DNA from: Bryoerythrophyllum caledonicum
Taxonomy: Eukaryota; Streptophyta; Bryopsida; Pottiales; Pottiaceae
Length of the DNA stretch: 64,000 nucleotides
NCBI GenBank assembly: GCA_963971425.1
Contig: OZ020522.1
Coordinates: 2,330,168-2,394,167, forward strand
Direction of reading: 5' to 3'
The notes beneath the pieces were generated by a model that did not search any database, was not told the origin of the DNA, and was given only the letters and a program-made list of their open reading frames with translations. Numbering within the stretch: the first letter of the stretch is position 1; each line of letters opens with the position of its first letter. This document shows positions 15,401-61,073 of the stretch, piece by piece. Both the position numbers and the translations under genes were made by a program.

Positions 15401-16176
15401 GATGAAAGAGACCATGTTTGGTTTTTTTGCATTATGTGGTGGCATTCATTCAAGGGTGGGGGCTTCTTCATTAGGACCAACTGCTTCCAATGCCACAAGC
15501 GGCGGGGGCCCAAAGGAGATGAGATCGTTCGGAAGTATGTTCGGACTCTGATCGAGGACTCGGGGAGCATGCGGTCGTGAGAGAGCAAAAGCAGTGTGGT
15601 TGGTGCATGGCGAGGGTTGTCCGAGAGTACGTGTATGAAGGTTTTAGATGGAGGTGGGTGTGCAGAACGTGCAGTTTGTGGTGACAGGATGGCACATGGT
15701 ATGGGGAGTGGCGTAATGAGGTAGAGAGTGCGTGGTTGATTATGAGGCCAGAAAGAGTGCCTCGGGTTGTGTGTTTTATGATAGCATGGTTGGCGAAGAG
15801 AGTGGGTAGTGGAGTGTGGTGGGGGCTCTGTATAGTTGGATGACAAGCTGATGGGGCGATATGGCGAGGGTTGTGGCGTTTGGTTGGGGCGTTGGTGTGG
15901 AGGGTGGAGGGGATGATTGGAAGGGAGGGAGGAATGGTTTGGCAGACGTAGAGAGCTTATCAGAGCGATAAGCGTAGGTTGGTCAGGTTCATCAAAATCC
16001 GTCGATATCTCATGGTACTACATTCAGGTCGGTGAGCTATAGTTGAATGAAGGTGCACAAGGAAATGTGCAGAAGTGGGAAGAAGGTAGAGGAAGACATG
16101 GATGTAAAGATCAGAAAATCTAGTTATGGAATGGAAGGGGCGATTCAGTGGTTTGAACGCCCGACTTCTCGATATG
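12445..16176 (+). repeat. Left arm of a large inverted duplication
   Basis: Inverted counterpart of 22,439-26,195. From about 12,780 to 16,176 positions pair as x + y = 38,615 and I see no difference in the stretches compared, introns included. A 3-base length difference in a G run near 12,786 shifts the pairing to 38,618 up to about 12,673. Upstream, 12,445-12,672 matches the other arm only loosely, with many substitutions and indels, although blocks such as CCTGCAGGTTGGGTTGACCA are kept. The outer limit near the spacer is sharp, after GACTTCTCGATATG at 16,176. Confidence 0.92.
12688..15580 (+). CDS. Two-finger RanBP2-type zinc-finger protein, left copy
   Basis: Seven exons join in frame: 12688-12761, 12973-13111, 13379-13495, 13612-13829, 14326-14794, 15003-15121 and 15475-15580, all with GT-AG borders. 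They encode 413 residues starting MYGGGEDSSGG. Two RanBP2-type fingers are visible. The first is at about residues 51-81 (NWVCDEPSCGNVNYPRRTE, then CNKCGKRRGP); the second is at about 362-392 (NWECEDCKNVNFPRR, then TNCFQCHKRRGP). Each finger is split by an intron before its second cysteine pair. The linker is rich in Gly, Ser and Met and probably disordered. RanBP2 fingers of the NxxNF/NYxRR type bind single-stranded RNA or ubiquitin in known families; here an RNA-binding role is inference. The identical gene on the other arm is transcribed towards this one. Confidence 0.88.
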
Positions 16177-25400: not shown

Positions 25401-26195
25401 TCAACCAGTTATACCCCTCACAGCACATCGTCACGCCTCATGACCCTCGAGTCCACGCCTCCAAAGATGCCAGTCCCAAGGGACCATGGATGCGCAGCCT
25501 CACCTCAGTCCTGCGAGGGTAATTCACGTTCCCGCAAGACGGCTCATCGCACACCCAGTTGCCGTCCTCCAGGGGCCGCGGCTGCTTCCCCCGCTGCAGC
25601 AGCCCCGCTTCCCCGTTCATCTGCTCCGCCAGCCCCTGCATTCTGCGGCCCACCACGCACGCCATCCCAATCAACATCCCAAACCACCTCGTCAACTCAT
25701 TGCCCGACACACCAATCCACCACTCCCCCCCCCCACAATTTAGGTCAACGCGGAGAAACTCCTCCCCCCCAAACACACACACACACACACAAACACCCCC
25801 TCCCCTCCCTCGCTCTAAATTCCCCCCCCCCCTTGCTGCAATCAATGGAGGGGTACCTAGAGAGACGAGGGTGCTTGAGCAGCCGGTTCACATAATGCCC
25901 GCCAGAGGAATCCTCGCCACCACCATACATCTAAGAACCTACAAGACCTCCTCCAAAACTCCTCGCCCGCAACCTCATGTCATCACATAGTCCACCCTCC
26001 TGCAACCCCCAAAGAATAATCTCAAAGCTCAACATGGATGATGCCTCTGGTCAACCCAACCTGCAGGCATCGACCGCCACGATCACCCCTCATCGACCCA
26101 TCCCATCACCCGGACCGTCGGTTCTGTGCGGCCACTAATCCATCATCACACTCTCGCACATGCCCATCCGTCACACTCACTCATTTACTCAAAAT
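22439..26195 (-). repeat. Right arm of the large inverted duplication
   Basis: This is the reverse complement of 12,445-16,176. Near-perfect identity holds from 22,439 to about 25,945, close to the gene's start codon. From there to about 26,195 only diverged upstream blocks match (for example GAGAGTGTGATG and ATGGATTAGTGG on the reverse strand). The sharp change suggests conversion between arms or a recent partial copy. Confidence 0.92.
23035..25930 (-). CDS. Two-finger RanBP2-type zinc-finger protein, right copy
   Basis: Mirror image of the gene at 12,688-15,580. The exons, in coding order, are 25857-25930, 25504-25642, 25120-25236, 24786-25003, 23821-24289, 23494-23612 and 23035-23140. All splice sites are kept and the exon sequences compared are the same, so the predicted 413-residue product should be identical. 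The one length difference noted (three bases in a G run) falls in the first intron. The two copies are convergent, with stop codons about 7.5 kb apart. Their promoters differ, so expression could differ even though the proteins do not. Confidence 0.87.
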
Positions 26196-31381: not shown

Positions 31382-31394
31382 CAAGAGTACCTGA

Positions 31395-31600
31395 AACTCA
31401 CTTGCGGGGGTGGGAGACTTCGAAGGAAGAACGGGAGATCTGAAGAGAAGACCGAACAACGTGAGCATCTGCAAACCATTCGAGAGGGTGGGAGGCCTGG
31501 AGTGAAGAACGGGAGACCTGAAGGGACGAGCGGGAGACCTGAAGGGAAGAGCGGGAAGCCTGGAGTGAAGAGCGGTAAAACAGTAAACAAGCAACGGACT
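31395..31600 (+). repeat. Short tandem repeats upstream of LINE ORF1
   Basis: Units close to GGGAGACCTGAAGGGAAGAG are repeated about seven times with spacing of 20-30 bases. Arrays like this are common in 5' untranslated regions of LINEs, where they can act as promoters; that role is inference. Confidence 0.55.
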
Positions 31601-32182
31601 CTTAGTAGAAACGAATGCCATAAGACGGTACAGACTTGGAGAACCTGCTGGCAAGGGAGCCAGTGCTTCAAGAACGGAAGGTCCAAACATTCAGGTCAAA
31701 ATCTTCTCTTACTCCCCCCATTAGTTAGACTCTATCATCATTGGGTTTATGCAAATCCATGTACTTTCGCACAAATCTTTTATAAATATTTATTTGCTTG
31801 GGGAGGTGACCTCTTTTTGGCCACCTCCCATGTGTGTATGTGTGCTGAAATTACTAGGCAACATAGTATCCCTCCATTTAACACCTTCTTCCATAAGATG
31901 GTGAAAATGGGCACAAATGAATGGTGTATACTCTACACAAGTTGTGATACTAAAAAGATTGTGGGTAAAGTTTGTAGGCAAATGGTTAGGAATGAATGGT
32001 GTCTATTGTATGCAAGCTATGTTGCCAATATTGTTGCAAGTATAAACTTCTTCTTAACTACAAACTCTCAAACAGGCCCACAACTTAATTTGTGGAATGA
32101 GGTTTTAGTTAAGATGATAAGAAGTTATTTGAAAGGCAAAAACAAAAACAAACTCCAATACCTTTTTCTTGCTTTGTTCAGA

Positions 32183-33823
32183 ATGGCGTCATCTTCAAGT
32201 GTTGCATCTGCCTCCAAGAAACTCTTCTCTGATTGTCAAATGGTTGAAGTAGAAGTCTTGAGTCAGAAAAGGGCTAGTGGCGTTCAAATCCTTTCAAGCC
32301 AAAAGAAGGTTAAGGGCAAAGAAATTCACGAATTTCAACGTCCTCCCTTTTGGCTAGGATTTCATGCACTAAACCTACTTGCCATGGACCAATCCCTCCC
32401 TATTGAACCAAATCATTCAGTGAGTCAATTGGTCAGAATGGGTATGAGTCATGAGGAAGCATTAGAATGTAATGAATCCATCCCCGCCTTCCCATATGTC
32501 ATTCAGGAAGAATGGCCTTCCAAAAGAAATGACAAGGATGGAGGAAATCATTACAATCTAACACAACTTCCCCACGAACTTGAGATTGATGAAAACGGGT
32601 TTGCACTTGATTATCATGTTGGCATCTTCTTTGAGCTTGGAGAATTAGTGATATTAAAAGATGATGTTATGGCTATGGTTGTTGCAAGATTGATGCACAT
32701 GAAAATTGAAGTGGGGGATATACTTGGTGAACCCATTGCAATCATGTGTTATCATGGCTCAAAAAGATGGAGTGGAGCAATCAAAGTACATCTTAAAAAT
32801 CCCAATACGGACGGGACGGGGCTCCCCAAAGGTATCCGCCCGGTCATCCTTAAATTGGATGAAAAAATTTGTAGGGGAAAAATATGCAAATCCTTTGACT
32901 CCATTGCCATTGCAAGTTTACTCTCTATAAGAGTAAATAGTGCAAACTTGAAGGGAAAAAAGTGGCATAACATGTTTGAGGAAGTTGTCAAAGATGGTTT
33001 CTCTAGAGGTCTAGATTTTGAAGTGACCAATATCCAGAAAAATGAAGGGGCGGATTTTGCTTGGATCAAAGCACCGTCACCGGATGAGGCAAAAAGGATT
33101 AGGTCACAAAAAATTTCCTTTTCCAATGAGCTCATGGAAGCAACATTTGCAAACAAGGAGAAAATGTCAGAAGATGACAAGGCCAAGAAAAATGCCATAG
33201 TCTTGATTGTCAAAAATCTGAACAAATCCAAATCCACTTCATCACTAGAAGAGGGTATCAAAGCATATATGGGTGAAAGAAATGTGGCGGGTGTCTTCTT
33301 CCGGTTGGAAAATAGTAAACATGTAGGGTCTTGCAATGTCCAATGTCTCAATGCCGCCGTATACAAAAAGTTTGTCAAACAAAATGCAAAAATACTAGGT
33401 AAATATGTCGAGTTTTGCCCCCATCCAAAAAGTTTGGATGGAATAAACGCACCAACATCCGAGGAGCTTGCACGGCTTGGCTTCACAGATGTGAATACCG
33501 CCCTTGCCAATACCGTGCAAGCTTTGGAGAATGCACCAACACAAAACTTCACCAAATCAGACCTCAACCGAATGGTTGAGGAAGCTGTAAACAAAGGTGC
33601 AGTAACAACATTGGGGGAAATAAGGAAAGAGATGAGCTTGCTCAAAAGTGAGATTGTGGAGGAAGCAAAGGTATATGCGGACAAGGTTCAAGCCGAATCA
33701 AATAGAAACTCAAGAGTCCAAATAGCCCTCCTCCAAAAACAAATGAGAATCACCTTGGAAACCCTTCAAGCCGACCATCCCGATACACTCGAAATTGAAG
33801 GCAATATGGACATGTCAAACTAG
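32183..33823 (+). CDS. LINE ORF1 protein (nucleic-acid-binding)
   Basis: I chose ATG 32,183 (MASSSSVASASKKLF), giving 546 residues; the frame is open upstream to 31,502 but that part has no protein character. The centre reads GSKRWSGAIKVHLKNP and GLPKGIRPVILKLDEK, the pattern of plant LINE ORF1 proteins. A later RRM-like fold is suggested by AIVLIVKNLNKS, then VGSCNVQCLNAAVYKKFVK and KYVEFCPHP. The C-terminus (KEMSLLKSEIVEEAKVYADK) looks like a coiled coil. ORF1 proteins bind the element RNA and assist target-primed reverse transcription. The frame is intact. The ORF2 start lies about 100 bases downstream in the same frame but is cut off. Confidence 0.7.
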   Translation: MASSSSVASASKKLFSDCQMVEVEVLSQKRASGVQILSSQKKVKGKEIHEFQRPPFWLGFHALNLLAMDQSLPIEPNHSVSQLVRMGMSHEEALECNESIPAFPYVIQEEWPSKRNDKDGGNHYNLTQLPHELEIDENGFALDYHVGIFFELGELVILKDDVMAMVVARLMHMKIEVGDILGEPIAIMCYHGSKRWSGAIKVHLKNPNTDGTGLPKGIRPVILKLDEKICRGKICKSFDSIAIASLLSIRVNSANLKGKKWHNMFEEVVKDGFSRGLDFEVTNIQKNEGADFAWIKAPSPDEAKRIRSQKISFSNELMEATFANKEKMSEDDKAKKNAIVLIVKNLNKSKSTSSLEEGIKAYMGERNVAGVFFRLENSKHVGSCNVQCLNAAVYKKFVKQNAKILGKYVEFCPHPKSLDGINAPTSEELARLGFTDVNTALANTVQALENAPTQNFTKSDLNRMVEEAVNKGAVTTLGEIRKEMSLLKSEIVEEAKVYADKVQAESNRNSRVQIALLQKQMRITLETLQADHPDTLEIEGNMDMSN

Positions 33824-33919: not shown

Positions 33920-34040
33920 ATACAACAACAACAACAACACTCCACACCCATCCCAATAGCAACCATAAACACTACTCATTTCAAACTATTAATTGTACTT
34001 TGCGGAGACATAGAAACTAACCCCGGCCCTATGCCAAATA
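33920..34040 (+). pseudogene. Start of LINE ORF2 with a 2A-like peptide, truncated
   Basis: Downstream of TAG 33,917 the frame reads HFKLLIVLC, then GDIETNPGP at 34,004-34,030, then MPNI. The string fits the 2A consensus (D-x-E-x-N-P-G-P after a hydrophobic stretch). In several non-LTR retrotransposons of animals 2A-like sequences sit at exactly this place, at the start of ORF2. The frame then enters the (TTC)n tract. No endonuclease or reverse transcriptase follows. Confidence 0.65.
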
Positions 34041-34313
34041 TCTTCTTCTTCTTCTTCTTCTTCTTCTTCTTCTTCTTCTTCTTCTTCTTCTTCTTCTTCT
34101 TCTTCTTCTTCTTCTTCTTCTTCTTCTTCTTCTTCTTCTTCTTCTTCTTCTTCTTCTTCTTCTTCTTCTTCTTCTTCTTCTTCTTCTTCTTCTTCTTCTT
34201 CTTCTTCTTCTTCTTCTTCTTCTTCTTCTTCTTCTTCTTCTTCTTCTTCTTCTTCTTCTTCTTCTTCTTCTTCTTCTTCTTCTTCTTCTTCTTCTTCTTC
34301 TTCTTCTTCTTCT
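34041..34313. repeat. (TTC)n microsatellite, about 91 units
   Basis: Uninterrupted TTC triplets for about 273 bases, starting directly after the ORF2 beginning. It could be an expanded internal triplet, or the 3' tail of an ORF1-only LINE. The unusual homopolymeric frames on both strands are products of this repeat, not genes. Confidence 0.98.
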
Positions 34314-35307
34314 GTGGTGGATTGTAGTAAAAAATATGGTAAGTTCATGTAGAAGTCTTTCTAAAAACCTTATGGTTTTAAATCCAAAATCGTACTTCAA
34401 AATTATATTTTCTTGCCACTTGTTGATAGTGGCAGTTTTGGAGTGTTTCTTGAGGGAAAATGCCTTGGGCTCTTCGAGACTAAGTAGTGTTTGAGGTGTC
34501 ACTTCTAAACATATTATTAGGATGTAATGTTAGAATTATATGTTGTACATATGAAGACATAGGCATAGTTCAAGCATTGAAACACTAATGTATTACTATA
34601 ATGACCGACGTAATCAAAATCCTAGTGGCATGTGACTAAGGCATTACTATGTAAGTCATTGAGTCTCTTGAACATGAAAGTTTTATTGTATGAATTTTAT
34701 TCTGTGAATTTTTATAACTAAGATACCACAATAATAAGTACAAATTACAACAACATAACTTCACAATTACTATCAAATTATTGTAGAATCTCTGTAAAAA
34801 GCATTCATAATCCAAGCCAGTGTAGAATTGCCACATCAATATATTGGTTTGGAAGTTGATAGTTCAAGCTTTGTACTCAGTTCTTTGAGTCACAGTACAT
34901 TGTTTACTTCAGTTTCCATAATCCTTAAAACTGCTTTTGGTTGAATCATGCTCGTGCTAGGGCAGTCAAGTGAAATTTCTGCATCCAAATGACTGGTCCG
35001 TGGTCCAGGAACTAAGGATTTTCTTGTACCGTTCTAAACAAGGCGACATCCTGCAATCATGTTTTTGCTATTGCATGAAGCAATTTTGGTAATCACAAAA
35101 TAAAGGATTTACAATAGACTGACACCAAGATTTGATAATGCAGAACTGGAGCCATACATCACGACCTGCCAGAGTAGGAACAATAATTTATGCCGTACTC
35201 TTTCCCCACTATGTCGTGCAACTCCCAACTTTAACATAGATTAATGGTGAGATAATCATAGAACCTTTTGGTGCCCTTATCTGGAAAACTAAAAGAGGCA
35301 TCTCCAC
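34314..35307. other. Intergenic, downstream of the membrane-protein gene
   Basis: AT-rich. The part near 35,300 is probably the 3' untranslated region of the minus-strand gene. No other gene is recognised. Confidence 0.4.
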
Positions 35308-45602: not shown

Positions 45603-45676
45603 ATTTTGAAAACACAAAACAAACTTCTTTTGTTATCTCAGATGGCCTAGATGTCATTGCTCACAGATTTGGCGAC

Positions 45677-45685
45677 CTAGAATAT
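45677..45685. repeat. Left target-site duplication of the Mutator-like element
   Basis: CTAGAATAT directly precedes the left terminal repeat and recurs directly after the right one (61,065-61,073). Nine bases is the usual length for Mutator-like elements. The next base is G on both sides, so ten bases cannot be excluded. Confidence 0.88.
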
Positions 45686-45742
45686 GAGCGAAGCTATTTT
45701 GTGAGCAGAAAGCGGTGAGTGGTGAGCGGTGAGCAGAAAAGT
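45686..45742 (+). repeat. Left terminal inverted repeat
   Basis: It begins GAGCGAAGCTATTTTGTGAGC and continues with GGTGAGTGGTGAGCGGTGAG, a run of GGTGAGC-like hexamers/heptamers, to AGCAGAAAAG. It matches the reverse strand of 61,008-61,064 with a few gaps. Confidence 0.88.
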
Positions 45743-46483
45743 TAGGATTTTTGGCAGGATTTTTCTTAAAATACATGGATATTAGTTTCAAGAATTTGCT
45801 GATGTACATTAAAATAAGAAGTTTGACTATTTTGGGTTCATAATTTGGTTAGTATCGTGGAAAATGAATGAACCTATAACCGTGAAAAAGGAGATGGTAA
45901 AAACTTTGGCCTCATGTTGTGGAAGAATAGATGAACCTATAACCGTGGAAATGAATATATTTTTAATCAGTTACAGACATATAGAATGAAAGATCTTATG
46001 TATTCCTCCCGAATATACTTAAATCATGCATGTTTTAAATACATAAAGACTATCTTATTTAACATTGTACCATCAAAAACATAATTGTTCCAATAATAAG
46101 TTGAAGTTTGGCCATGTTGTTCCCACTCACAAGGTAGAAATATGCAATGCGGGGAAGATTGCATAAATGATGAACTTAACTTTTTGTTTACGACCTAATT
46201 CTCCCTTACCTTGATAGTATTAGAAGTGCAGACTAAAATTTGGGAACATATAGAATGACATCAATGGTAGATACAGAAGAAATATTTATCTAATTAGGTT
46301 TGAAATTAATTCATACATCATGCCTGGTTTTTTTATAAGAAGGATGATACTTTGTAAGAGAATATTGGTGATGATAATAATATAGTAGGAGAGACGCATG
46401 TACGACAATATTACACGGTGGCCTTTTCTGTCTCACCGCCATTTTAGTTAGAAAAGGAATAAGAAGTACAATAGAACTATTTG

Positions 46484-49400
46484 TCACGCTGTTTTTATAG
46501 TGTGACAGTGTGGTAGCAAGTTTTCTAACACGCGTTTGATCTCGTTGTAGCTGAAACTAGGTGCGTGGATAAACTGATCTACTTCAGGAAGCAGATTACA
46601 AAGCCGGGTAAAAACATAATACATATGTTTGCAATTTACCCATTGACCACGCTTACCTAATGACTTTGTTGCCATATCCTTAAAGAAAGGACAATCACAA
46701 CTTGGAAATTGACCGACAGTGATGAGATACTGGGATGATTTGGATCCTTGACGAGACTCAAATGATACAATTGAACCTAGTGCTGGAGAAGGAAGCAGAG
46801 TGGCTTTCAGAATTTTACCATTTATTGAAAGCGCTGATGCGTAGCTATTGGAATGCTTTGTTGTTGGTGCCTTGGAGTTGCGTCGAATGTTCTTCCCAAA
46901 TCTGCGCTTTGGATACTCGTCGGGGGAAATTGGTGCCGGAAAGTCATCAAAATTGATGAGACCATTGAAATCATTGAACTATTGGTGCGGTGCAAAGGCT
47001 GATCGTTCAGCCAAGCGAAATCCAGCATGTTCGAGAGCAAACACTTCTTCTTGTGTAAGATTAGTACCAAGCTTTACGGGCCAAATCTCTGGCACATGCG
47101 GTTTAGCAACAACCCACTTGCGCCTAGTGCCCTTCACACAACGCTCAATATCATCATTGCAAAAGAAAAACTGCATTTGTTCTACCTTGTTTTTCTTGTA
47201 TGACGTCATCATGCCTGTGTAAGTAGGAGCAGCAGTAGGTTTGTTGTACTGCAATTTTCGCCACGCATTTTCATTTTGTGATAGCATGTTGAGCAAAACA
47301 TGCTTTCGCTGAGGTCTTCAAAAGCCGTGCTATATGCCACTCCTTCTCATTACAAGGCGTCTCAAGAACTGCCTTCGTATGATATGGAATTGGGACGGTT
47401 GTTGTTGGCTCTTCATATGGACTACTCTGCACTTCAGGTGGATTCAATTGTACAGCAGGAGCAGGCACCTCTTCTGAAGTAAGATCGACAATGCTGGCGT
47501 AGGCACCGTAGCGTGTTCTCTTCATGGGTCGAGAGACGCTAATTTTGTCAGGGCGATGTGAGTCAAACTCTGATCCTATGGGAATATCTGCCTTCCGCTT
47601 TATAGAGAAGAAAACCTCTTCGCCTTCCAAGTGTGGCTCTCTAGTGCAAAATTTCGAAGCGCCTCTCATCTCTTCTAACGCCGCATGCAACTTCTTCGGA
47701 TCTCCGGAGCTTTTTGCATTTCGTTGGGCAAGTCGCAGACGAAGATCTTCCTTACTAGGTCTCGTGCCTGCACGCTCACCTTTGGAGAACTGATAGTATG
47801 CTAGAACTTGCGTAAAGGCTCGGACATAATCATCCACCGTTGCTACGTAAAGATCATTTCCTCGTTTTCCGGATTGTTGAAGCGACTTGTTGTGCACCGT
47901 CTCAGCCAGATTGCAGGAAGGCATTTCCACAAGTTCCTCCTCCGTTAGATCTTGACTCATGGACCAAAACGTTAGCCACAAAATCACCATAGCGATAACA
48001 ACTCTAATTATATAAAAAAAAAACGTGCAAAGAAGACATCACTTACAAGCTCAAGAAATCCACCCCATTGGCGGTAACGAAAGTGCCAAAATGCTAGCCA
48101 CAGGTCGAGGCGAAGAACACCTTCTTCGGTTGTAGCACCTGATGACAACCACCATGACCGGATGGCAAGGTACTTCCTCTCTGCATCTTCCAGCGAATCA
48201 GCATTCTTGTATTGTTTACATAGAGAGCGGTGCTGCTCTTGGAGGTCAGGTCGAATGTCGGCTTTTGTATGCTTCTCCAGAGATTGCGTCCAGTGAAATA
48301 GACACGTGCGTTCACGATTTTCCATTGGGGTCTTTGCATCACCGGAACCGTAGATGATCCTCACTGCATTCCAATTAGCTTGGGCACTGTCCGCCATAAA
48401 TCCTTTAAACTGAGGTTTCAAAATGCCATGTCGTTCTGCAACGCCATTCAAGTTCTTCCAAAATACAAGCTGGGCCTCAACATCCTCAGATTGCATGTTA
48501 CAAACAGCTATGGTCATGACACGACAATATGATGAGTCGTACACATGACAAGCCATCGTGGTCCAACCCTTCACACGCTTGACATGATCAAACATCATCC
48601 ATGATTTGCACAAATCTCCATCAGATTGCATTCGCCTAACAAGGTCAACACCACTCCCTGGGCCAACTTCAGACATCTTGAAAACAAATACCTTATCTGA
48701 TTGAGAACCTTGTCCAGGGAACATGTTATTTTGCAGGTACGCCCATTTGCTGGATCCTCTAAGCTTCGTAATACTGTCCATGACTCCATAACGCGTGAGG
48801 TACCGAAATGATGTAACCTGGTTGCACAGATTTGGAGATGTCAGGTTCTTGCAAGTCTCGAGGACGGGCAACAACTCCTCACATGATAGATTTTTCTCAG
48901 GCGCACCTTCAGGATTTAGCAGAATAGATGCTACAAAGTCCTTGCCGGCCTCTAAAATAATAGCTGAATTCGTGGCAGTGGGTGTTCTTTCCACCTGGTC
49001 ACTCAGTAGGGTCGTAAGACGGTCCGCGGACTCCTTGTCTACACCCTTCTTGACTGGATGCTTGTGATGACCAATATGGACACATGCACGAGACATCGGA
49101 GGGGGACTTAAAATATAGTATATTTTGGCTGAACAAACATTCAAACAAGTAGGAGGAGTCTGACAGATTTTGCAGACGACTGTAGAATTCTTGGGAGGAT
49201 TTGAGTCAATTTCAAATCGTAAATACGATGATCCATCCCACTCAGTCTCATTCGCAGGAGTTGGCCTATGAATTCTATCAAGGTATGCGCACTTATTATT
49301 GACACACTGTAGGTGCCCAAGACAAGATGACATTCTAAATGACAGACCCATGTCATTTAGAATGTGGGTTGTGACAGTACGAGTCCATGCATGACCATCA

Positions 49401-50075
49401 TGACGTTTGTCCATGCCCTGTAATAGCTTGGCTTGTGACTGCGAAGACAACATTGAAACTGGAGGCAAAACAAAAATGACATCCCCATCAAACTACTATG
49501 GAAGTTGGAGGGGATCTAGATGGTAGATGTGGAGGTTTTACATGAAGGGGTCGATTGTCAAGAGAGGTATCACGTACTGGAGAATCTACATTGACAAGCG
49601 ATGGAGTAGAATTTGGTTCCTCTACGTAAACGAGAACAGGGGTGTCTGTATCTGAGTCATCACTCAAAATGTGAATTGTTTTAGAACCTGGCTCAACTTT
49701 GATTGTCCGAGGACCACTATCGTGTTTGTTGCTTGTAATAGAGACACGAGATGCCAACATTTGGCTGGATGAACTGTGCGAATTATCTCTAACGCCGTAC
49801 ACTTTAAAAGTACCACACTTGAGCAGCCACGATTTTCCTTCGTTAGTAGTGATGGATTCCTGACCTATGGTGTCAGTAAGAACTCCGGACTCTACATCAC
49901 GTACTTCTTCATCAACATAAACTGAAGCCTCCAGTAAATGGAATCTAGAAGAAAGTCGACTCGCACTAACAGAGCAATGACCATCAAAAGACACATGGAA
50001 CGTAATCGGGATTTCTTGACCATCACCATGAATCAGAACTGTGCCTAGACTACCTACATCAGCGGACGACATCAC
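46484..50075 (-). CDS. Mutator-like transposase with WRKY/GCM1-type and SWIM zinc fingers
   Basis: The N-terminal part (50,075-49,574) is acidic and Ser/Thr-rich; a plausible intron (49,465-49,573) joins it to the main frame. That frame starts with a GCM/WRKY-type finger (KRHDGHAWTRT, SCLGHLQCVNNKCAYL, C..C and HIGHHKH). The catalytic core has a first Asp near MMFDHVKRVKG, a second in GFMADSAQANWNAV, and CLFHW as in Mutator transposases; the Glu is likely in LEDAERKYLAIRSW. A second block (47,990-47,271: DLTEEELVEMPSC, DSHRPDK) follows an intron near 48.0 kb. The frame changes near 47,285 through an unrecognised intron or a frameshift. The C-terminus carries a SWIM finger (CDCPF ... CKHMYYVF). 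An amber codon lies at 46,979-46,981. It is divergent from the ParB-like gene and about 620 bases from it. Confidence 0.82.
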
Positions 50076-50692
50076 GAAAAGTTTCAGAAGTTCAAGTATG
50101 AAATGAGAGAGTTAAACCAAGAGACCTAATTAGATTTATACTTCCAAATAATCAGTTATTATCTTTTTGTCAAATAATGGATGAAAAGCATAATAAGGAG
50201 TAGTCCAAAATTTTCGGCAAGTCCAGATCCGTTTTATGCGTCACGCTAGATTAAACACATAATGGAGACTGACAATGTTCAAAATGATGGCGTTCTTGAC
50301 ACAAACAACATCCCGGATCTACTTGACCACATAATAGAAAAATTTCTAGTTGGAAAGTGAAATGAGTGAGGTATTTTTAGTGTAAATCAGCGTGTAGTAG
50401 TCGAACTTTGGAATGTATGTACAAAATAGTGGTCGTGCATGTAAATACTATCTCACCAGGTCATAAAGGTTGTGCTAATCAATAATTTCTAATCATAAAT
50501 ATTGATAAATGACAGCGGGTGACAGCTAAATAGCTATGATAAGCTCTGACAAAATTTACACTATTGAATATAGCAATAATGAAGTGTACTGTCGACACTG
50601 GATTTCTGTGGATTTTTATGAGCTACATCTTCAATTCACAAATTGTTGAATTTTGATAAGTTGAGTGAGATGGAAAATCTGGCATATCTCAG
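50076..50692. promoter_or_regulatory. Intergenic region between the element's two divergent genes
   Basis: An AT-rich stretch of 617 bases lies between the start regions of two genes pointing away from each other. It must hold both promoters if the element is expressed. I see no clear TATA pair or operator-like palindrome. Confidence 0.5.
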
Positions 50693-53600
50693 ATGACTGG
50701 GAAGTGTAGCTACCAATCTCTTGTTCCATCGTGTGAGAAGAAGAGGAGACGAAGAAAGCGAGGTATTTTGTTTTCAAGTCGTAAGGAGTTGCAGAGATCT
50801 AGGATGGGAAAGCGAAAGGCATTTTGTAGTCAGGTGGACATTTCGGAAACAGCAAAGGTGTTGTCCTTTAACTCCACCGAGGGTGATAGTGATTGCGAAC
50901 TTCAAAACATTGAAGAAAATGAAGGAGAGTCATTCTCTCAGGTATTGGTAATAGTGTTGTTGAAAATATTCGACCAGTAGGGTCGGTTACATGCTAGCTC
51001 CAAAGTTGTCTTTGAATTTATTCTCAAATGTAATTCCATGCTATGTACGTGTGTACTCTGTGATTTCAAAGTGCTTTAAGCCTGTCTATTGAACTCCTTT
51101 GCATGGGTTTGTCAGGCAAAAGTTGCGGGAGGAAGCGAAGCACAATGCCACGATATTTCGGGTGGTATATCATCTCCACAAAGAAGGCCTTCGAGAGAAG
51201 AGGTTAGCTTTCACCATTCATACTCAAGTCAGATGTATTTTCACTTCACATTCATAACTAATATAGCACGGCCCTAATCTCAATACACCGATTTCCTAGA
51301 ACACGTAAATGAAAAAGTATTGATCATAGATACTCATCTGCATAAAATCCATGGGTCACAAGTTTAGGTTGACCTTTCACAATGAAGCAAGTGTGTGTTT
51401 GTATTTGGAACTTGTAAAGTCCTTACTCTATCAAGGTCCCAAATGGCATCTTCTCAAAGATATTGAATTAAGTCGTATCTCTTGTACAAATAAAGTCTCT
51501 TTTCTTTTGTGAAAAATAGCATACCAATCCAAGTCAAACATTTTCACACATTGTCCCTCATTGTCGGGCAGGGTACCAAAAAAACTTCTTCTTTTCCACA
51601 GAGAAACCTAGAAAAATTTATATTTTTCACCTTTTATCATGCCTACAACAATATGTGGTGTAAACCTTCTTATTGACCATTCGGATTACCAATCTAAAAA
51701 ATAATTAGTTCACAAAAAATTAAAGTGTGAATTGGCAAATTTTGAACCTCCACTCCTTGCACAGTTGTTTTGAATATGCTACTCCCGTCTTCTACCTCCA
51801 AAAATTGGAGTACAAGGAACTATCATCATGCTTAACAAGATGGTAATGGATTTAGACCTTGTGTAGTGCCAAATTTTGACTCCAAGTGAAGTCAAAGTCT
51901 GCTGATCCAGTTAACGCAGGAAAAAGAATGAATCGTGTGCTTGACTTCAAACACTATAATATTTCAATCCGTGCGGTCAAAGTTTATGAATTTTTTTGAG
52001 TATGTTACTGAATTAGTCTTAATTGAGATCCTACGGACAAAACTAGAAGTCAAAGTTTTTGTTTCCTTCTTTGTTCATTGCACTAGAATCCAACAATTTT
52101 GAAGTGTTTTAGTGTAAGACTGTCACGGTACCTTAGTGGATAAGTTATGTTGGACGGCCATCTCAATATGTTGGACTGTTCATATTCTTTGTGTGAACAA
52201 ACGAAGATGGATGATTTTTCTCCACGAGGATAGTTTGGTTTAGGGTAAACGCCCAGGCATACTTTTCTACGACGGCGGCTTCCTAACGTCTTCTCTTCGT
52301 CTCTTGCACTCACAGGCCGAAAAGTGATTGCTGTGAAGGTCTCTTGGTGAAGGTCTCTGTGCATGTTCTAACGCATTCTGTGGGTGTGGCAGGTGTCGGG
52401 AGGCACGAGCAAGGAAATGGCTGCACCGACAGTATCGTCACCAAGTGTTGAGGTATGAAAACTGACCTTTATTTGGACTTGCTTCGGGTTAGGGTTTGGA
52501 GTATATTGAAAAAGTGCAGAAATCTGTGACGTCGTTGGTTCGCGCTTCATTGCAATAATACCTGAAGCGCTCTCTCTCGACGCTTTACAAACTGTTGGGA
52601 ATCCCTCTCCAACTCTCTCGTCTACCTCTCCTGAAGTTTCATCTACTTAAACCGACATCCCGACTTCCATTCAACTTGAGCCGACTGGAAGAAGATTCTT
52701 GCCCGACATGACATGAAGAAGGTCGAAAGGAGACCTCGTGCACGAGGCCTCCTATTGGACTGTCTCGGTTACTGTCTATTCCGACTTTCTCACCGAATCT
52801 AGAGCCTCGTATACCTGTCTAGACTGTTCCGACTTACGGGTTCTACGGCGACGTATACCAAGTCCAGACTACTCCCGGTTACTGTTCAAGACTATTCCAA
52901 GTATCGGCGTGCAGATCTCAACACAACGTCCTAGTTCAGGTTTGAGTATCGGCGTGCAAGTATCACAACTTGCAAGTTCGAGTATCGGTGTGCAAGTTTG
53001 GGTTCGCTGAGGAAATCTCAACGTGCAGATTTCATCACGTGCGGATTTCAACTCAGGCAATCAGTCGACAAGAATCTCCACTCAGGCATATTACTATCGC
53101 CAAGAACCTCCATCCAGGCATTCAATCGCCTAGACCCTCCACTCAGGCATTCAGTTAGAAGAATATTGCACGGAATGATCATGAACTTCTGGTGATAGTG
53201 GTTATTGTGGTTCTGGATTCTGGTTATCGTGGTTCTGGATATAGTGCCGATTCGGGTACCAATTCTGGTTCTGATTCTAGTGATCTACTGATCTATCACC
53301 AGAAGTTCAAGATCATTCGGTGATACTTCTGGTGATAGTGGTTCTGGATATAGTTATTATGGTTATCGTGATTCTGGATATAGTGCGTACCGTGATAGTC
53401 TTGCACCAATATGGTTACCGTGGGTACTTTGGAACTTTAGAAATCAGTTCTTTAGAAAACGATAACCAGGTGATGAGGCCTCATGAACGATTCTGGTTAT
53501 ATTGGGTACCAATTCTGGTTATAGTGTTGGTACTGATTCTGGTTATAGAGGCCTCGTGAACGATTCAGGGTACCTCGTGTATGGGTACCGATTCTGGTTA

Positions 53601-56600
53601 TAGTGGTTGGTGCTGGTTCATGAGTGGTGATTCCGATGATAGTGGTACATGCACATGCTATTGATGCATGAGTCCAGATTCTGGTGTTTCCTGTCCCGAT
53701 ATTCCTTTCCTGTCCCGATATTCCTTCCTGTCTAAATATTCCATCTCCTGTCCCGACATCACCTGCTTGTCCCGATATTCCTTCCTGTCCCGACATGACA
53801 CTATCACCAGAAATGTTGGTGCATGAGTCCGATGGCAATGGTTGTACCGAACTTCTGGTTGGAGCATGTAAACCGATAGCAGGTGCATGAGTCCCGATGG
53901 CGACTCCCGACTCACGAGGGGCCGGCACCTATCCCGAATTCCTTTGTGTTCACCAGTCCCGACATCATCTGAACGAGGTCGGGAGGAGCCCTTGTTCACG
54001 AGGCCTCATCAGTGTTGGCGCATGTTGGTGCAGGAGTCGAGATGCTCGTGCATGAGCTACAAATCTGAACCCCTTCAGTGATTCGGATTCGCGACTCCTT
54101 CCTCTTGAACTCTATCTCCTGTCCGAATTCCTTCCTGTTCATGAGTCCCGACATCACCTGAAGACGGTCGGGAGTAGACCTCGTGGACGAGGCCTCATCC
54201 GTGTTGTTGCATGTTGGTGCAGAAGTCCAGATGCTCGTGCATGAGCTACAAATCTGATCCCCTATAGTGATTCGGGTTGGCGACTCCTTCCTCCCAAACT
54301 CTATCTCCTACCCGAATTCCTTCCCGTCCATGAGTCCCGACATCACCTGAAGACGATCGGGAGTAGACCTCGTGGACGAGGCCTCATCCTCGTGCATGTT
54401 GGTGCAGGTTCCTTCCAGGCCTCTCATCTCTTCCTGTCCCGATATCCTTTCTGTCCACCTATCCTGACATGACAGCATCGAGGTCGGAAGGAGACCTCGT
54501 GCACGAGGCCTCCTTCTATAGTGTGCCGATTACTGTGAACCACAGCTACAGTGTCCCGGTTACTGCTACAGTGTCCCTATTCCTGTCCCGATTACTGTTG
54601 ATGTCGTTGTGGTAACGCTGGAGTATGATGGCAGGATTTAAGTTAACCAATTGCAGTGTCCCAATTAGTGGCTTGGGGACGCACTTTCTCGGGTTTGCGA
54701 CGAGGACACCCGACTATCTTCTCTCTCACATATCTTCCTCTCCTCCTGTCTTGAAAATCTTCCTCTCCTTCTGCCCCGATAGGACTTGGAGAAGGTCAGA
54801 AGGAGACCTCGTGTACGAGACTTCCTTCTGTAGTGTCCCTATCACTATAAACCTATGCTACAAAGTCCCGATTATTGTGTACGTTATCGTGGCAATTCTG
54901 GAGTGGACTGGCGCAAATGCACTGGACCGATTGCAGTGTCCCGGATACTGGCTCGGGGAACCAGTCTTTCGGGTTCGCGACTTATCGTGGTGTCGCTGGA
55001 TTTCACTCGTCGCGAGCACCGTAAATGGTTTAGGGATTCATGGGAGAAATTATTTTTCAGCTTGAAATATTGAGCCGGGTAGCTCGAGGCAGTTTCTCTG
55101 CTTTCCTTATATCCGGAACGCTCTTATATTTATTAAGAGGAGGTCAATATTGATGATGGACTAAAGCCTCGTAGGCGAGGGCTTATTTATTGCATTACGT
55201 GTTCTTGGTTAAGCAACATGGTCAACTACTAAATTTTGGCAAGACCAACGCGGTTCATTAGCTCATTGTGGTCTTTGGCATCAGGAAGCAACCCTGCAGT
55301 TCAAAAATTCTGTGCCAGAGAGTTCAAGACACTAAAGCCTCGTATGCGAAGCCTATTCTCTCTTATATGTTTGCTAATTATTGTGGGTTTGGCAGGCTGA
55401 TCTTGGCGGATCGGGCGAAGATCTTCGGGACAACATATTAGATAGTTCACCATTGCTGACTACTACACCAAGTAATGAGGTGAATTCGAAGCCCTGAAAT
55501 TCTAGAATGATTGGATTTTTTATGCTCAAATCTGTCACAGCTACATATTCATGGTTAAATTTTGAGTTTAATCTTTTTTAGTTGAATTAGGTAGCTGCAG
55601 CAGTCCAATCACAAGTGACCTTGCATACGAGGCTTCTCAAATTCTTTCATTGTGGCTTGATTAGAGTGGCACTGCTAAGTTAAATCACTACCATCATGTA
55701 ATTTAGCAATGTTGTATACCTGGTTGATCTAGTAGTGAAGAGGCCTCGTAGACGAGGCCTCTCTTAAAGATGACAAAAACTAGAATATATAAAGTTCATG
55801 TAGATGGTGATATTATGTAAAGTTCATGTATTTTAACTCTGGATATAAGTTCTTGTGGACAGTTGCATATCTGAATGGATAATATTGCTTTCAGGAATAT
55901 ATTTTCTAAATATTGTATCGTCTGTTTTATAAAAGGGAGATCATGATGACACTCACGATGGCGATAATCATAGTCACAGCCCCCATATTCAGGTTAGCCA
56001 CTTCCTCTATTTCTTCCTAGCAATACTTGGGATTTATCATACCTTGTGATATTTCTTCTAAGTCACACATATTGCCTTTTGTAGAATGAGCCCACGAGCG
56101 ATTCTGAGGATTCGTCACCAAAGTGTCCGGATGGATTGGTCAGTTCCTTCGAGGGTGAAAGAGCAAGACGACTTCATCAGAAGTCTAATTTTGTGACCGT
56201 CCTGGAGAGCATGCGCGTTACGAAGGGTCCTTTTTATGCGCCACTTTGCAGGATGATTGCCATTCCACGAGTTCAGCCGATTCAAGAGATTGACGTGTGT
56301 GCGTTGCAGAAGAGATTTGAAGGCGGCTATATTGATGGAGATCGTGCATTCTATATATCCATCTATGATGACCAGGAAATGACACGTGATGTTTCCCCTA
56401 ATATAAAGTCAACGTGGGATTCACATTGGATTACAGCAAATGATAAGTTTGAGGAGATGTTGAACTCTACTCCAGAGTTAGCAGCATTCAGTGGCAAAAT
56501 GTTTTTTGTTTGGGACGGAAATCATAGGTACAATGCGTGGTGGCGTTTCATTTCAGAACAGCATGGCAATGACCCAAATTGGCATTATGATGTCCAGTGT

Positions 56601-59600
56601 ATTGTATTGAATCCGACAGGGCGGATATCTGTGTTATTGAACTGCATGCACGATGTCAACTGGTACATTCTCTAGCACTTATCATTTTTCTTATGAAATC
56701 ATTCAATTCTTTTTTGCTACTTAGAGCTAATTAGAACTTATTTTCTGCATGTGCCCATTCAGGTCAACACATAACGATTTTGTGAAGACCAGCCTTCCAG
56801 CAAAACTCCAACGTATACGATTTTATGGTGGGCTGAAATTAGAAGATTTTAAGGATCTCTTGACAGCTGAGGAATTCAAGATGTGCATGAAAGTTCGGCA
56901 GTCCCGTGCAGCATGGTTCCCGTTAACAGTTGATGTTTTTATATCATTCTTATATCGGATAGGGATTTGCACACGCTAATTTTTTGTAATGGTTGATTTT
57001 GCAACCACATTTGAGTTTGTTTCATATACCAATATTTTGAAACATGATTGCAGCAAGATATTTCTCGCGCTTCTGATGAAGCCGCCATTGAATACGAGAA
57101 GCGGACATCAGTTGAGGAGAGAAGCGCTGAAGGAGTGTGGAAGGTCATGAGCGATGCTGCAGCCAACACCGTGAAGGCAATTAAAGGCAAGGACTTTCAA
57201 AAGTACCTTGCAGTCGCCAATCCCAAGAACGGCGATGACTTCTTTGACGAGGTAAACAATAATGAACATAAATTGTTTGAAATATAAATCATGATTAGAA
57301 TTGATTAGAATCTTTTTTGTTAATACATAGTGATTTTAATTTATCTTCATTACTATTGGCAGATCAATTTTCATTTCAGTCATTTTAAAAAGACTGAAAT
57401 GACCATTGAAAAATTACAAAAGGTGGCAACGGCAGCGGTGGAGCCTCGTTTCAAAACAAGGTGGCTGCATTTTTGGAACTCTCCAGCAATGGTGAGGTTG
57501 GCATTCCGCTTTCCAGCTTCGCAAATCAAAGATGGCGCTCTTGATTCCTTTCTCAATCGTGCAACTTTTTGGGCACAGGTATTGAAATTTATTATCGGTT
57601 TCTCATGACTTATGTGATAGTTTTTGCATCTTGATCATTACGTATGAGTCCTGACTTTTCAAATTCATTATATCAGCTGGAGGACAAATTTATTGCCCAT
57701 TTTGAAGAAATTTGTGCAACGGGCACTATTTCAGTGAACTCGGACGCTTCTCCAAGTATTGAGAGGCCCTCCGAATATGTGGAAAAATGGCGCATGGTTT
57801 TATCGGAGAAGGCGTATATGGTCATTGTGCATCCAGGGTTAAAACCACCATTTCAGAAGAATATAAAGTTTGATGTGTTGCCTGGAACTGACCTCGCCAT
57901 CAAACGACTTCTATACAGGTATGTCTCTTGTGACTGTCCTAGTTCATTGTTGTTTTAATATCTTCTAATTCTAAGTCGCTTATTAAAGTCAAATTTTTTC
58001 TCTTTAGGTACATTGTGAGAGAGCTGATTCCAAAAAACGCTCTCCAGCAACCTGTATGCCCTTCATTTCTGTCAACCTGGATTCAGCCTTCATCAGACTT
58101 GTGCATCTTTACCGAGATTCAGAAGAAGAGGTATTCCACTCGAGTATTACACGGTGGTAGATGGTACCTGGAATGCTCTGTCAACTTCGTTCCAGATGCG
58201 GAGAAAGACCTCTTTAAAGGTCTTTTAGATATTTCAGAACTTCCCACATCAACAGCATTGGAAGAGCCAGAGGTAGAAATTGTGGAGCAGTCGTCATCTC
58301 CACCAGTTCTAGTCCAAGAGGAGACGTCGGGGAAGAAGAAGCGTCTTTCGAAGGCTGAGAAGGAAAAACTTATCGAAGACGCGGAGGTTGCAAAGAAGGC
58401 TGAGATAGATGCAGCTGTTGCAGCCGCCCTTGCTGAGAGAGATTCATTGAATCTTTCTTTCATGCCAGATCCAACAGATATGCCTAGGAACGAGGTCCAG
58501 GCATGGAACTCTCCTCCAATAATGGCGTCTTCTCAAGCTGCAGGATCAAGCCATGTTGAAGTTACAAGGATGGAAGTGCAACAACGCAAGCAACGCCAAT
58601 TTTTATTTTCTGAGTCATCCGTTGCGCCAGTGCTAGCTGTCTCATCAGAATGTTTCATCAAAAACATTTCACTGTTTTCTACCATGCAGTCTCTTTCAGA
58701 GATTGGAGGTCCACCGCAACTTTGGGAGGAGCTACATCAATTTATTTCGAAGGTTAGACTATGTTATCCTTCTTGATTTTAATTTCTGCAGAATCACATT
58801 TACACAGTTGTTGTACAATCATTGGTTTTTTTTGCTTGTAGGTTGGTGCAGGTAGATCGCGATCAGTTTCAAACGAAAATTGCAAACACACCGGATTGGA
58901 TCTTATAGTGGCTGATATTCCTGAGAGTTTGCCAGTTCCTGGGATTTCTCAATCTATTGATGTCATCCCTTCATGGAATTTGAGGCCGAAGAGTTATATT
59001 GATACGATTTTTGAGTTCGCTGACAACTATCTTCATGACAACGCTGTGTTGCTTCTACTTCATCCAAATGATCGGGAATTACAACTTGAGATTGATGATT
59101 GTGCTTCCACATATGATTTCAAACTCCTCATCGACTAGTGGGCTTTGAACGAGCTTCCTCTAGCTCTGCCTCGAGATCCTTCTGCAACAGTAAGCTGTAT
59201 TCCAATTGTCTTCATAGTTCTGAGCTATAGTTTTAAATATCCTCTTTGTCTTTCTAATCCACAATATCCTTTACTGTTATTCCTCAGGGAACACGTTTCT
59301 GTGTTCAGCTGTTTGTTCGTGACGCTCCCATCGTCTCGACATTCTCGGTTCGCTCTCCACTTCGAGAGCTCGACATCTTGTTCAATCCGGTGAATGTTGC
59401 TTCACAGCTCAAGCATGGCGACTCACCATGGCGGGGGGCTCGAGAGAAAGCGGTTGATCTCATGAAGACAGTTCTTGAATCCCTCACAAAAGTTGGGGAT
59501 ATTGTTTTAGATTGGAATGCCTCTATGGGTAAGCATTTGTTTAATATTATTGTATATTTAACTTTTTCATATACCTCACCTAAATTTTATCTTATCTAAT

Positions 59601-60121
59601 GCTATGTATTTTTTAGGACCAACTATTCGGGTGTGTCAATCATTGGGCCGTCACATATTGGCCTTTGAAGAAGACTCCGAGATTTTCCAAGCCTTGCTCG
59701 CTCCGCTAATTCCAAAGGCAAACGCGAAATTGACTTTGGAGAACAGGAGGAATGTGCGACGTTCTCAAGGAGAACCACCTCAGAAGAAGCAAAAAAGTAG
59801 TCGTATTCCTTCTTGTAAGTAAGTTCAAAACATTATTTTGTTTTCATCGTTGTTAACAAAATATGTGTACGGTTTTAATTTGAACCCTAAACCTCATTGA
59901 TTCTCTGTTTCCTTTGCAGAGCTATGCCGCTACCTTTATCTCCAAATTCTTTTTTTTCTCTCCCTACTTGGGCTCGAAGAACTGCAGAGATACAATCCAC
60001 TATGAAATCTCCTCCCCCAACACGTCAGCGGCAGAGGTATCACAAAGATGTTATCTGCTACATAGATGCAGAGGCAGAGGTTGGCAATGGAAGCAAGGGT
60101 AGTTCAGATGATACGGAGTAG
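50693..60121 (+). CDS. ParB-like / N4-N6 methyltransferase-like protein of the Mutator-like element
   Basis: Fifteen exons with GT-AG borders join without a frame break: 50693-50941, 51116-51202, 52393-52452, 55396-55479, 55936-55992, 56085-56662, 56763-56934, 57054-57251, 57363-57578, 57677-57918, 58008-58752, 58842-59189, 59288-59528, 59617-59814 and 59922-60121 (1,225 codons with stop). Exon 1 has a nuclear-import-like KKRRRRKR. Exons 6-7 contain a ParB/sulfiredoxin-like segment with FFVWDGNHRYNAWW. Exon 11 has a charged stretch (KKKRLSKAEKEKLIEDAE). Exons 12-14 follow the order of beta-class DNA methyltransferases: DLIVADIPE at the DPPY position, then WRGAREKAVDLM, then GDIVLDWNASMG and LGRHILAFEEDSEIF at the SAM-binding position. 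Both catalytic motifs are altered. One in-frame TAG (59,136-59,138) interrupts exon 12. The last intron's acceptor (GAG) is uncertain, and so is the exon 7 donor. Confidence 0.72.
51490..52143 (-). mobile_element. R1 repeat, copy E, inside intron 2 of the ParB-like gene
   Basis: This is the inverted relative of 5085-5800, ending with GTAAGACTGTCACGGTACCT next to an eroded terminus (GGATAA). It lies wholly within intron 2 (51,203-52,392), so it need not disturb the coding sequence. Confidence 0.75.
53200..53640 (+). repeat. Short degenerate repeats TTCTGGTTATAGTGG in intron 3
   Basis: Words such as GATTCTGGTTATAGTGG, GGTTATCGTGGTTCTGGAT and GGGTACCGATTCTGG recur at least twelve times. They give spurious Ser/Gly/Thr-rich frames on both strands. 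They form part of the repeat-rich third intron. Confidence 0.75.
53956..54520 (+). repeat. 189-bp tandem array in intron 3
   Basis: GTCCCGACATCA starts units at 53,956, 54,145 and 54,334. Each unit contains one CCTCGT palindrome, then CATGTTGGTGCAG and CTCGTGCATGAGCTACAAAT, then CTCCTTCCTC...CTATCTCCT. The third unit is incomplete. The array therefore multiplies the palindromic site. Confidence 0.85.
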
Positions 60122-61007
60122 TTGTTTGGTGTATTAATTTTCATTTCTGATTCAGTAAGATCTTATTTGCTAGTCCAACTAGGATCTACCAAAATTGGAT
60201 ATTGATCTTGTATTGGTTTTAATTATTCCTGAACAATTTTATATTGAAACATGCCCTTTAGTTTGTTTCCATCTTATTTGGTATTCGGACACGGAAAATT
60301 TCTAACCTGAATCAAAACTTATTTGAATTTGTAACTGCATACGAATTTGTCAAATAAATATGTATTCTACTGTCAAGCTAAGTATGCAATTCAATGGCAG
60401 ATGTTAAAAATTGAAGTTTTGGTTGTTATTCTACTTTGTCATTGAGTAATGAATTAGTATTTAGTACCACATAGAATGCAAGAGTGAATGATAGAATGTA
60501 CAAAGTATGGCGCACGGAATATTGCTAGGACCCTAAACCGTACATATAAAAATACATTCTAAGAAAATAAATGAGTTAATTTATGATGAGCAAATAGATA
60601 CATGTCTTTTCGAATACAAAATATTAAAATTAAAAATGGGCAAATAAACCAAGAAGAGGTAGTTTTTGAAGAGTTGTGTAAAAATTGTACAATACAGATA
60701 CAATCTTGCCTACCTAAACCCTAAACCCTAAATTCTAAGATTCTAAATCAACGTTCAAATACAGTACTATAGTCTCTAGATCATGCTAACACATCAAACT
60801 GTGTATTTTCCTCATAATATGAATGCGAGGCCTTTCATCCACGGCCATAGGGCATTTCATGAAACTATAATGATTCACCCTTTTGTTTTAAACCAAAGTT
60901 TCAATTATAGTGTATAATAATCCACGGCCATAGATCCTCTCCCAAGCTAAAAACTATTTCCCTAAACCGTAAACTTAAACCTAAACTCACTTTTTTTTCT
61001 GCTCAAA
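60122..61007. other. 3' end region of the Mutator-like element, no gene
   Basis: AT-rich. It contains a short plant telomere-type stretch (CCTAAACCCTAAACCCTAAA at 60,713) and related CCTAAAC words near 60,960. These are too short to suggest a former chromosome end. Confidence 0.5.
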
Positions 61008-61064
61008 CCCATTTTTTTTCTGCTCACTGCTCACCGCTCATTGCTCACAAAATAGCATTCCCCC
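61008..61064 (-). repeat. Right terminal inverted repeat
   Basis: Reverse strand reads GGGGGAATGCTATTTTGTGAG then GAGCGGTGAGCAGTGAGCAG, matching the left repeat from GCTATTTTG on. It is followed at once by the target duplication CTAGAATAT. Confidence 0.88.
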
Positions 61065-61073
61065 CTAGAATAT
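61065..61073. repeat. Right target-site duplication
   Basis: CTAGAATAT, identical to 45,677-45,685, is followed by host sequence GGAACAG. Confidence 0.88.

Follow-up and report, generated by a model that had tools for sequence, protein, structure and literature searches.

Detailed knowledge of how transposons discriminate self from non-self and escape silencing is available for few systems. VANDAL elements belong to the Mutator-like element (MULE) type, and the sites bound by ParB proteins of bacteria are palindromic and lie close to the ParB gene. The passages of PMC5735166 drawn on here report that VANC21 binds a 9-base motif enriched in the non-coding parts of its own element, resulting in local loss of methylation, and that this motif is arrayed in tandem repeats, the introns of VANB21 and VANC21 among them. 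According to the same passages, the motifs of VANC6 are different ones, and conservation is higher in the transposase VANA than in VANC. For the Ectocarpus element Sola1-1_Ec32, the relevant sections of PMC12477816 describe a gene of 1104 residues that combines ParB with a DNA methyltransferase and is located on the strand opposite the transposase; they add by citation that similar ParB-methyltransferase proteins have been reported in transposons of green and red algae. Sections of PMC5890265 report that dinoflagellate and charophyte retrotransposons have taken up cytosine methyltransferases. Here, we describe a 15.4 kb DNA transposon from the moss Bryoerythrophyllum caledonicum, located at 45685-61063 of a 64,000-nucleotide stretch (C10:2330168-2394167, hereafter the window), in which a transposase gene is accompanied by a ParB-methyltransferase-like accessory gene. 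Each element region examined contains a family-specific array of short dyads in or near the long intron of the accessory gene, suggesting a candidate system of self-recognition.

Within the window element the transposase gene (46484-50073, minus strand) and the accessory gene (plus strand) are arranged back to back. The accessory gene begins with a basic N-terminal exon (50693-50948, containing KKRRRRKR), to which a similar exon exists in sister families; this exon is followed by a long intron and a main part of 11 GT-AG exons (55936-60122, chain read by hand). The genome searched for further copies comprises 437 Mb in 894 contigs. Its chloroplast PsaB has its highest scores, 1695-1699 bits, with three photosystem I chains of the PDB (8htu, 6l35/7xqp and 7ksq/7kux), all of them from the moss Physcomitrium, and the chain that follows reaches 1666 bits, in keeping with a moss host. 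A copy on contig C9 is approximately 98% identical across the entire element, with shifts within the repeat region, and a copy on contig C8 is approximately 80% identical in the genes and conserved at both ends. Four stretches from sister families (A to D) were also fetched, of which A was opened fully and B, C and D in part.

The long intron of the window copy contains 11 sites of the dyad CCTCGTnnACGAGG at 52734-55757 (at most 2 mismatches) against a shuffle mean of 0.07, and the whole window contains 14 against 1.08. The dyads measure 14 bp, with a conserved core of 20-22 bp. Ten CCTCGTnnACGAGG sites are found in the C9 copy and eight in the C8 copy. The C8 intron can be aligned to the window intron in just 23 pieces of 13-37 nt, and 20 of these 23 pieces lie at dyads. 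Comparison of the sites within single regions gave 67-87% identity for the 22-bp core and 29-40% for the adjoining 60 nt (58% in the tandem array L077). The core is thus far more alike than its flanks, which indicates that the dyad, and not a larger repeat, has been kept in most arrays. A motif-blind search for the commonest palindrome was applied to 12 element regions (the fetched regions plus the window) and to 9 control regions of our own choosing. All 12 element regions yielded 6-16 sites, each count exceeding the maximum of 20 shuffles, and the controls yielded 1-5 sites, with none of the nine above its shuffles.

The dyad differs from family to family. The window's own family and its 72-77% identical relatives carry CCTCGTnnACGAGG, and a subfamily at 66-67% identity carries CTTCGTnnACGAAG. 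The dyad is CTTCGGnnCCGAAG in sister A, TCTCGGnnCCGAGA in sisters B and C, and TGCCGCnnGCGGCA in sister D. When all family dyads were searched at no more than one mismatch, every region matched its own motif alone (3 to 15 hits) except sister B, which gave three extra hits for a one-base variant motif; no hits were obtained in eight control stretches, likewise chosen by us. Across the genome, 366 exact occurrences of CCTCGTnnACGAGG were counted, compared with 23 of its backward pattern; the corresponding counts for TCTCGGnnCCGAGA are 980 and 21. The location of CCTCGTnnACGAGG (CCTCGT) was analysed for 50 distinct places of the 366, all on C1 and part of C2. For 41 of these 50 sites, a listed copy of the transposase or the accessory gene lies no more than 10 kb away, and such places make up at most 0.64% of the genome. 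A separate cluster of six CCTCGTATACGAGG sites within 1.7 kb was observed at G000 C1:17833910-17835597, with no listed transposase or accessory copy nearby; it is possibly a diverged or deleted element.

The limits of the element were set from the family termini TGAGCGAAGC and GCATTCCCC. A terminal inverted repeat (TIR) is present at the transposase end (TGAGCGAAGCTATTTTGTGAGC..., 45685-45750, plus strand) and at the accessory-gene end (GGGGAATGCTATTTTGTGAGC..., 60999-61063, minus strand), and immediately outside them lie the two 9-bp copies (45676-45684 and 61064-61072) of the target-site duplication CCTAGAATA. Positions 45693-45727 and 61022-61056 form a 35-nt terminal repeat match of 86%. 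A 27-nt pattern derived from the terminal repeats occurs twice in the window against none in 100 shuffles, and 105 times in the genome (64 forward, 41 reverse) against none for the backward control; 100 of the 105 places entered the neighbourhood comparison. The target duplication matches at 9 of 9 positions in the window element and at 8 of 9 in both the C9 and the C8 copy. Ten further TIR pairs, picked for exact repeats at both ends and read at their ends alone, show duplications of 9/9 in eight cases, 8/9 in one and 6/9 in one. The window element is a single mobile unit with both genes between matching ends. An earlier note on this DNA had placed terminal repeats and a 9-bp duplication around both genes at 45,686-61,064, which is borne out with a shift of one base, and its proposal of one transposon carrying both genes is upheld by the many copies, the target duplications and the recurrent pairing of the genes.

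Some copies depart from this structure. At L070 (G000 C9:24708890-24718850) two TIRs separated by 9.5 kb flank what is left of both genes after internal deletion and are bordered by a matching 9-bp duplication, CTAGAAGAG (by eye); L070 is a non-autonomous derivative, and five further TIR pairs have a similar spacing. Approximately 0.5-1.6 kb beyond the left end of the C8 copy (692-1874 of the turned stretch L040+L039) are the remnants of a further transposase belonging to this family, diverged and approximately 41% identical.

The recurrence of the gene pair was assessed from two lists. The accessory list contains 51 copies (window copy included; 40 found via the ParB-like exon and 11 via another exon) after scoring of 55 of 4580 first-look candidates, and the transposase list contains 88 places, with 88 of 2976 first-look candidates scored. 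A listed transposase is present within 20 kb of 26 of the 51 accessory copies, and in all 26 pairs it lies upstream on the opposite strand. Likewise, 26 of the 43 listed transposases of the own subfamily (at least 78% identity) are accompanied by a listed accessory gene. The same layout is retained in sister A, whose transposase is 69.5% identical to that of the window family and whose accessory homologue covers residues 21-995 of 1066 at 35-53% identity; its N-terminal exon shares 50% identity over 38 residues (E 4e-8). Sisters B and D carry the ParB-like exon, that of B with a stop codon, and sister C has the N-terminal exon within the 6.2 kb fetched. Seven sister transposase places (C1, C6, C8, C9, C861), one of which was fetched, have equal scores and open 730-residue frames, which suggests a recent amplification of sister A.

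The main part of the accessory gene consists of exons at 55936-55992, 56085-56662, 56763-56934, 57054-57251, 57363-57578 and 57677-57918 (exons 1-6), followed by 58008-58752, 58842-59189, 59288-59528, 59617-59818 and 59920-60122 (exons 7-11), all on the plus strand. The exons had previously been said to join in frame. This description holds for the 11 exons and the N-terminal exon apart from one stop codon at 59136-59138, which truncates the window gene ahead of motif I and is read through in the C8, C9 and sister A copies. The exon at 56085-56662 encodes the sequence WDGNHR, which all 12 aligned sequences share without change, and D-G-x-H-R is a ParB/Srx motif. Eight database relatives of this exon were found, at 61-78% identity and on contigs of at most 7.7 kb. 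A protein search with the whole accessory protein as query gave no hit, and comparison of the ParB-like exon with viral and prokaryote contigs gave no match. The ParB-like assignment made in the earlier note is plausible, as judged from the motif and the architecture, but drew no match in the profile searches.

The C-terminal half of the accessory protein (beta-class methyltransferase-like region, 58842-59818) passes the cut-off of the Pfam family PF01555 (N6_N4_Mtase; 8.2e-7, 29.6 bits against 26.7, with an X placed at the stop). It also matches PHROG methyltransferases (2.4e-7) and, weakly, DpnA and CcrM (E 0.04-0.1). Active beta-class enzymes have DPPY ([DNS]PP[YFW]) as motif IV and usually DPFxGxG as motif I. 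Of 20 distinct copies of the moss protein, 15 have DIPE at the motif IV position and none has DPP[YFW] (22 rows were compiled, and two that were second views of the same copies were dropped). Motif I reads DWNAS.G, not DPFxGxG, the window copy having VLDWNASMG at this position. DIPE is kept in sister A at approximately 50% identity, indicating a family trait and not the decay of one copy. The methyltransferase-like part is thus probably not a normal enzyme and its catalysis is doubtful. The beta-class resemblance claimed in the earlier note is retained for the C-terminal half of the protein, with the reservation that the catalytic motif is altered and the gene is broken in the window copy. Two phage methyltransferases, examined as references for a ParB fusion, were rejected, their annotated 768 and 804 bases being too short for a fusion.

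Substitution patterns were compared between the C9 and C8 copies. The ratio of nonsynonymous to synonymous substitution rates (dN/dS) of the accessory gene was 0.14 and that of the transposase 0.10, and both genes are under purifying selection between these copies. By part of the accessory gene the ratios were 0.10 for the ParB-like exon, 0.11 for the middle, 0.11 for the linker and 0.24 for the methyltransferase part. Synonymous sites are saturated between the window family and sister A, at which distance the transposase retains an identity of 0.71 against 0.49 for the accessory protein (47-49%). The window copy of the element is decayed.

The transposase gene of the window is likewise a broken copy, with stops and frame changes and a region near 49490 that is approximately 100 bp shorter than in the C9 and C8 copies. 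Its main exon frame encodes 482 residues (48047-49492, minus strand), and among the best 120 of 322 matches, protein-database relatives reach 84% identity over the whole exon. In C9 the main exon lies within a 737-residue open frame with no stop, and the open frame of the second exon spans 520 residues in C9 and 484 residues in C8. The C-terminal piece (46484-46978, minus strand) contains a SWIM-like C-C-C-H motif (CxC...CxH) that is shared by the window, C8, C9 and sister A transposases and has no Pfam match. No credible Pfam match, including MULE (PF10551), was obtained for the window transposase or its relatives, and the window-family transposase is absent from the listed places of a genome search with PF10551 in which 150 of 384 candidates were scored. 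An hhalign comparison with MULE, made from shallow alignments, aligned the D...C-x-H core at a probability of 1.1 and an E value of 0.05. The previous assignment to Mutator is consequently a partial one: the 9-bp duplication, the terminal repeats and the SWIM-like motif agree with it, but the profile comparisons gave no link to MULE. A 554-residue open MULE (PF10551) frame was observed on a small contig (L001, G000 C340:146320-149604); it is 23-25% identical to four other genome MULE hits and represents another family or a contaminant.

The arrangement of these components resembles that of the VANDAL elements. As reported in the parts of PMC5735166 that concern them, VANDAL elements also have an accessory protein, and arrays of short motifs particular to each family occupy their introns and further non-coding parts; the motif and the protein shift between families, and the transposase is the more conserved. 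The components themselves are different. VANC has DUF1985 and DUF287 domains, 'methyltransferase' is absent from the text of PMC5735166 that was available, and the VANC21 site is a 9-base non-dyad with demonstrated binding, whereas the moss dyads are known from sequence alone. By this comparison the moss elements would follow the VANC logic with unrelated-looking parts. The dyad arrays lend indirect support to the proposal that the accessory gene marks or protects its own element. We lean, by a small measure, towards a MULE-like transposon that encodes its own recognition protein, which would bind the dyads of its own family and shield the element from silencing in the manner of VANC. The ParB-like part, together with the region behind it, would bind the dyads as a dimer, comparable to ParB on palindromic parS and to VANC21 on its motif arrays, and the accessory protein would thereby load solely on own-family copies. 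The methyltransferase-like part, most probably an altered or catalytically inactive domain, may then act on the loaded element. Its effect would be to prevent host silencing of the intron and of the regulatory region that the two divergent genes share, and perhaps to tune the expression of both genes. Whether this amounts to a ParB-parS-like self-recognition in a plant transposon, with protein and intron dyad diverging jointly so that recognition, loading and protection are confined to a family's own copies, is in our judgement an evenly balanced question. The moss system resembles bacterial ParB-parS in its D-G-x-H-R-like motif and in palindromic sites close to the gene, and differs from it in the lack of a profile match and in its many intronic, family-dependent sites.

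Several results weigh against this reading. The motif names were chosen after inspection of the regions, and the transfer to other copies alone is independent. In the C8 copy the motif-blind search chose a TGCATT repeat over the CCTCG dyad. Some arrays are partly tandem repeats (spacing of 72-84 in L077), hence their sites are not all independent. Ten of the 12 sites of sister D are located behind the ParB-like exon, and 9 of the 50 listed CCTCGTnnACGAGG dyads lie away from listed copies. None of the 88 listed transposases is within 20 kb of 25 of the 51 listed accessory copies; 17 of the 43 own-subfamily transposases have no listed accessory gene, and among those listed, none of the 45 sister transposases (66-71%) has one. 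Searches of Pfam, PHROGs and PDB profiles found no ParB match for the accessory protein, and two structure predictions of the ParB/Srx fold had mean predicted local distance difference test (pLDDT) values of 33.5 and 38.4 and were left unused. Stops are present in many accessory copies, as expected of an old family, and the transposase main exon has one stop in C8. Between the window and C9 copies dN/dS was 0.70 for the accessory gene and 0.42 for the transposase, from few changes.

Under a different explanation, the accessory protein is an active methyltransferase that places N6-methyladenine (6mA) or N4-methylcytosine (4mC) on its own element, thereby marking self or permissive chromatin. 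The match to PF01555 above its cut-off and a motif order like that of beta-class enzymes agree with such an activity, which we nevertheless regard as improbable: motif IV and motif I both deviate from the consensus of active enzymes, with DIPE in 15 of 20 copies, DPP[YFW] in none and DWNAS.G at motif I, and the methyltransferase part is the least constrained of the four parts compared. The Ectocarpus protein, too, speaks for an active enzyme, since the portion of PMC12477816 devoted to it presents the protein as a predicted 4mC or 6mA maker. Recognition combined with anti-silencing or regulation is favoured over methylation of the element's own DNA because the motif is DIPE and never DPP[YFW], and because motif I is altered, though an unusual enzyme is conceivable.

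The dyads might instead belong to the transposase, to a host factor or to an RNA hairpin, with the accessory protein having some other role. The sites are located between both genes, large parts of the transposase are without known domains, and a dyad can also fold as a hairpin. Yet the dyad of sister A differs although its transposase is still approximately 70% identical and only its accessory protein has fallen to 47-49%. In addition, the two variable central bases would fit a DNA-bound dimer better than a two-base hairpin loop, and the arrays occupy the accessory-gene intron, not the terminal repeats. We consider this assignment of the dyads unlikely, and similarly unlikely is an accessory gene that represses the element or controls its copy number instead of acting against silencing. 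A protein bound between the divergent genes could control both, and ParB proteins of bacteria are capable of repressing the operons that encode them, but lasting purifying selection on a self-repressor would be harder to maintain in a mobile family. Passive carriage of a captured host or bacterial gene, in the style of Pack-MULEs, would be in keeping with the frequency of captured fragments in plant MULEs. It is strongly disfavoured, and we reject it as very improbable, by the preservation of pairing and orientation between families whose accessory proteins are less than 50% identical and by the accessory dN/dS of 0.14. A chance assembly of two adjoining transposons has nothing to recommend it beyond the separate reading directions of the genes; it is refuted by the copies, namely the full-length copy of approximately 98% identity with the same ends and the 10 TIR pairs, eight with perfect duplications, and we reject it as next to impossible.

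The proposed recognition system has partial precedents in print. Sola1-1_Ec32, compared by its description alone, is like the moss element a giant DNA transposon with a ParB-like and methyltransferase gene opposite the transposase; according to the sections of PMC12477816 concerned, it differs in its transposase superfamily and its distant lineage (brown alga). The green and red algal transposon genes have the same domain pair per the citing text of PMC12477816, where giant EnSpm elements are mentioned for red algae. The retrotransposons of PMC5890265 are also transposable elements with a DNA methyltransferase, but their enzymes are of the cytosine-C5 type and reside in retrotransposons, whereas the moss element is a DNA transposon with a beta-class-like domain. 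The pair is of a known kind, since a ParB-methyltransferase accessory gene is in print for the Ectocarpus transposon, and the idea of a categorically new pairing was rejected on this precedent. The earlier note's remark that it knew of no such partner from plant Mutator-like elements is narrowed by the same Ectocarpus element and by the algal transposons, as PMC12477816 describes them. A term search of the main text of PMC12477816 found no occurrence of 'palindrom' or 'dyad', and a term search of the available text of a Mutator element survey (PMC6446971) found mention of neither ParB nor methyltransferase. In the open-access literature no paper was found for ParB combined with Mutator-like, methyltransferase and transposon, and no account was encountered of the pair in a moss or a MULE-like element, of a changed motif IV or of dyads specific to a family, traits that had no separate searches. 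What was not found in print is the 14-bp dyad array in the accessory gene's long intron, differing between families. One genome here offers several families with distinct candidate sites beside their accessory genes, some copies being apparently intact, so that protein-site co-evolution is directly testable. If true, the proposed recognition would extend ParB-like site recognition, a principle of bacterial chromosome segregation, to eukaryotic transposons, and would imply a role for methyltransferase-like domains that possibly no longer methylate.

Further features were observed in the window outside the element. Near-identical stretches at approximately 11805-16017 and 22598-25990 lie in opposite orientation, and the open reading frames (ORFs) that they share, one of 417 residues for example, are found on opposite strands; a GC-rich gene has apparently undergone a large inverted duplication. 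An 813-residue open frame at 31382-33823 may be the first ORF of a long interspersed element (LINE)-type element. A long trinucleotide microsatellite at approximately 34021-34494 gives rise to poly-F, poly-L and poly-R frames.

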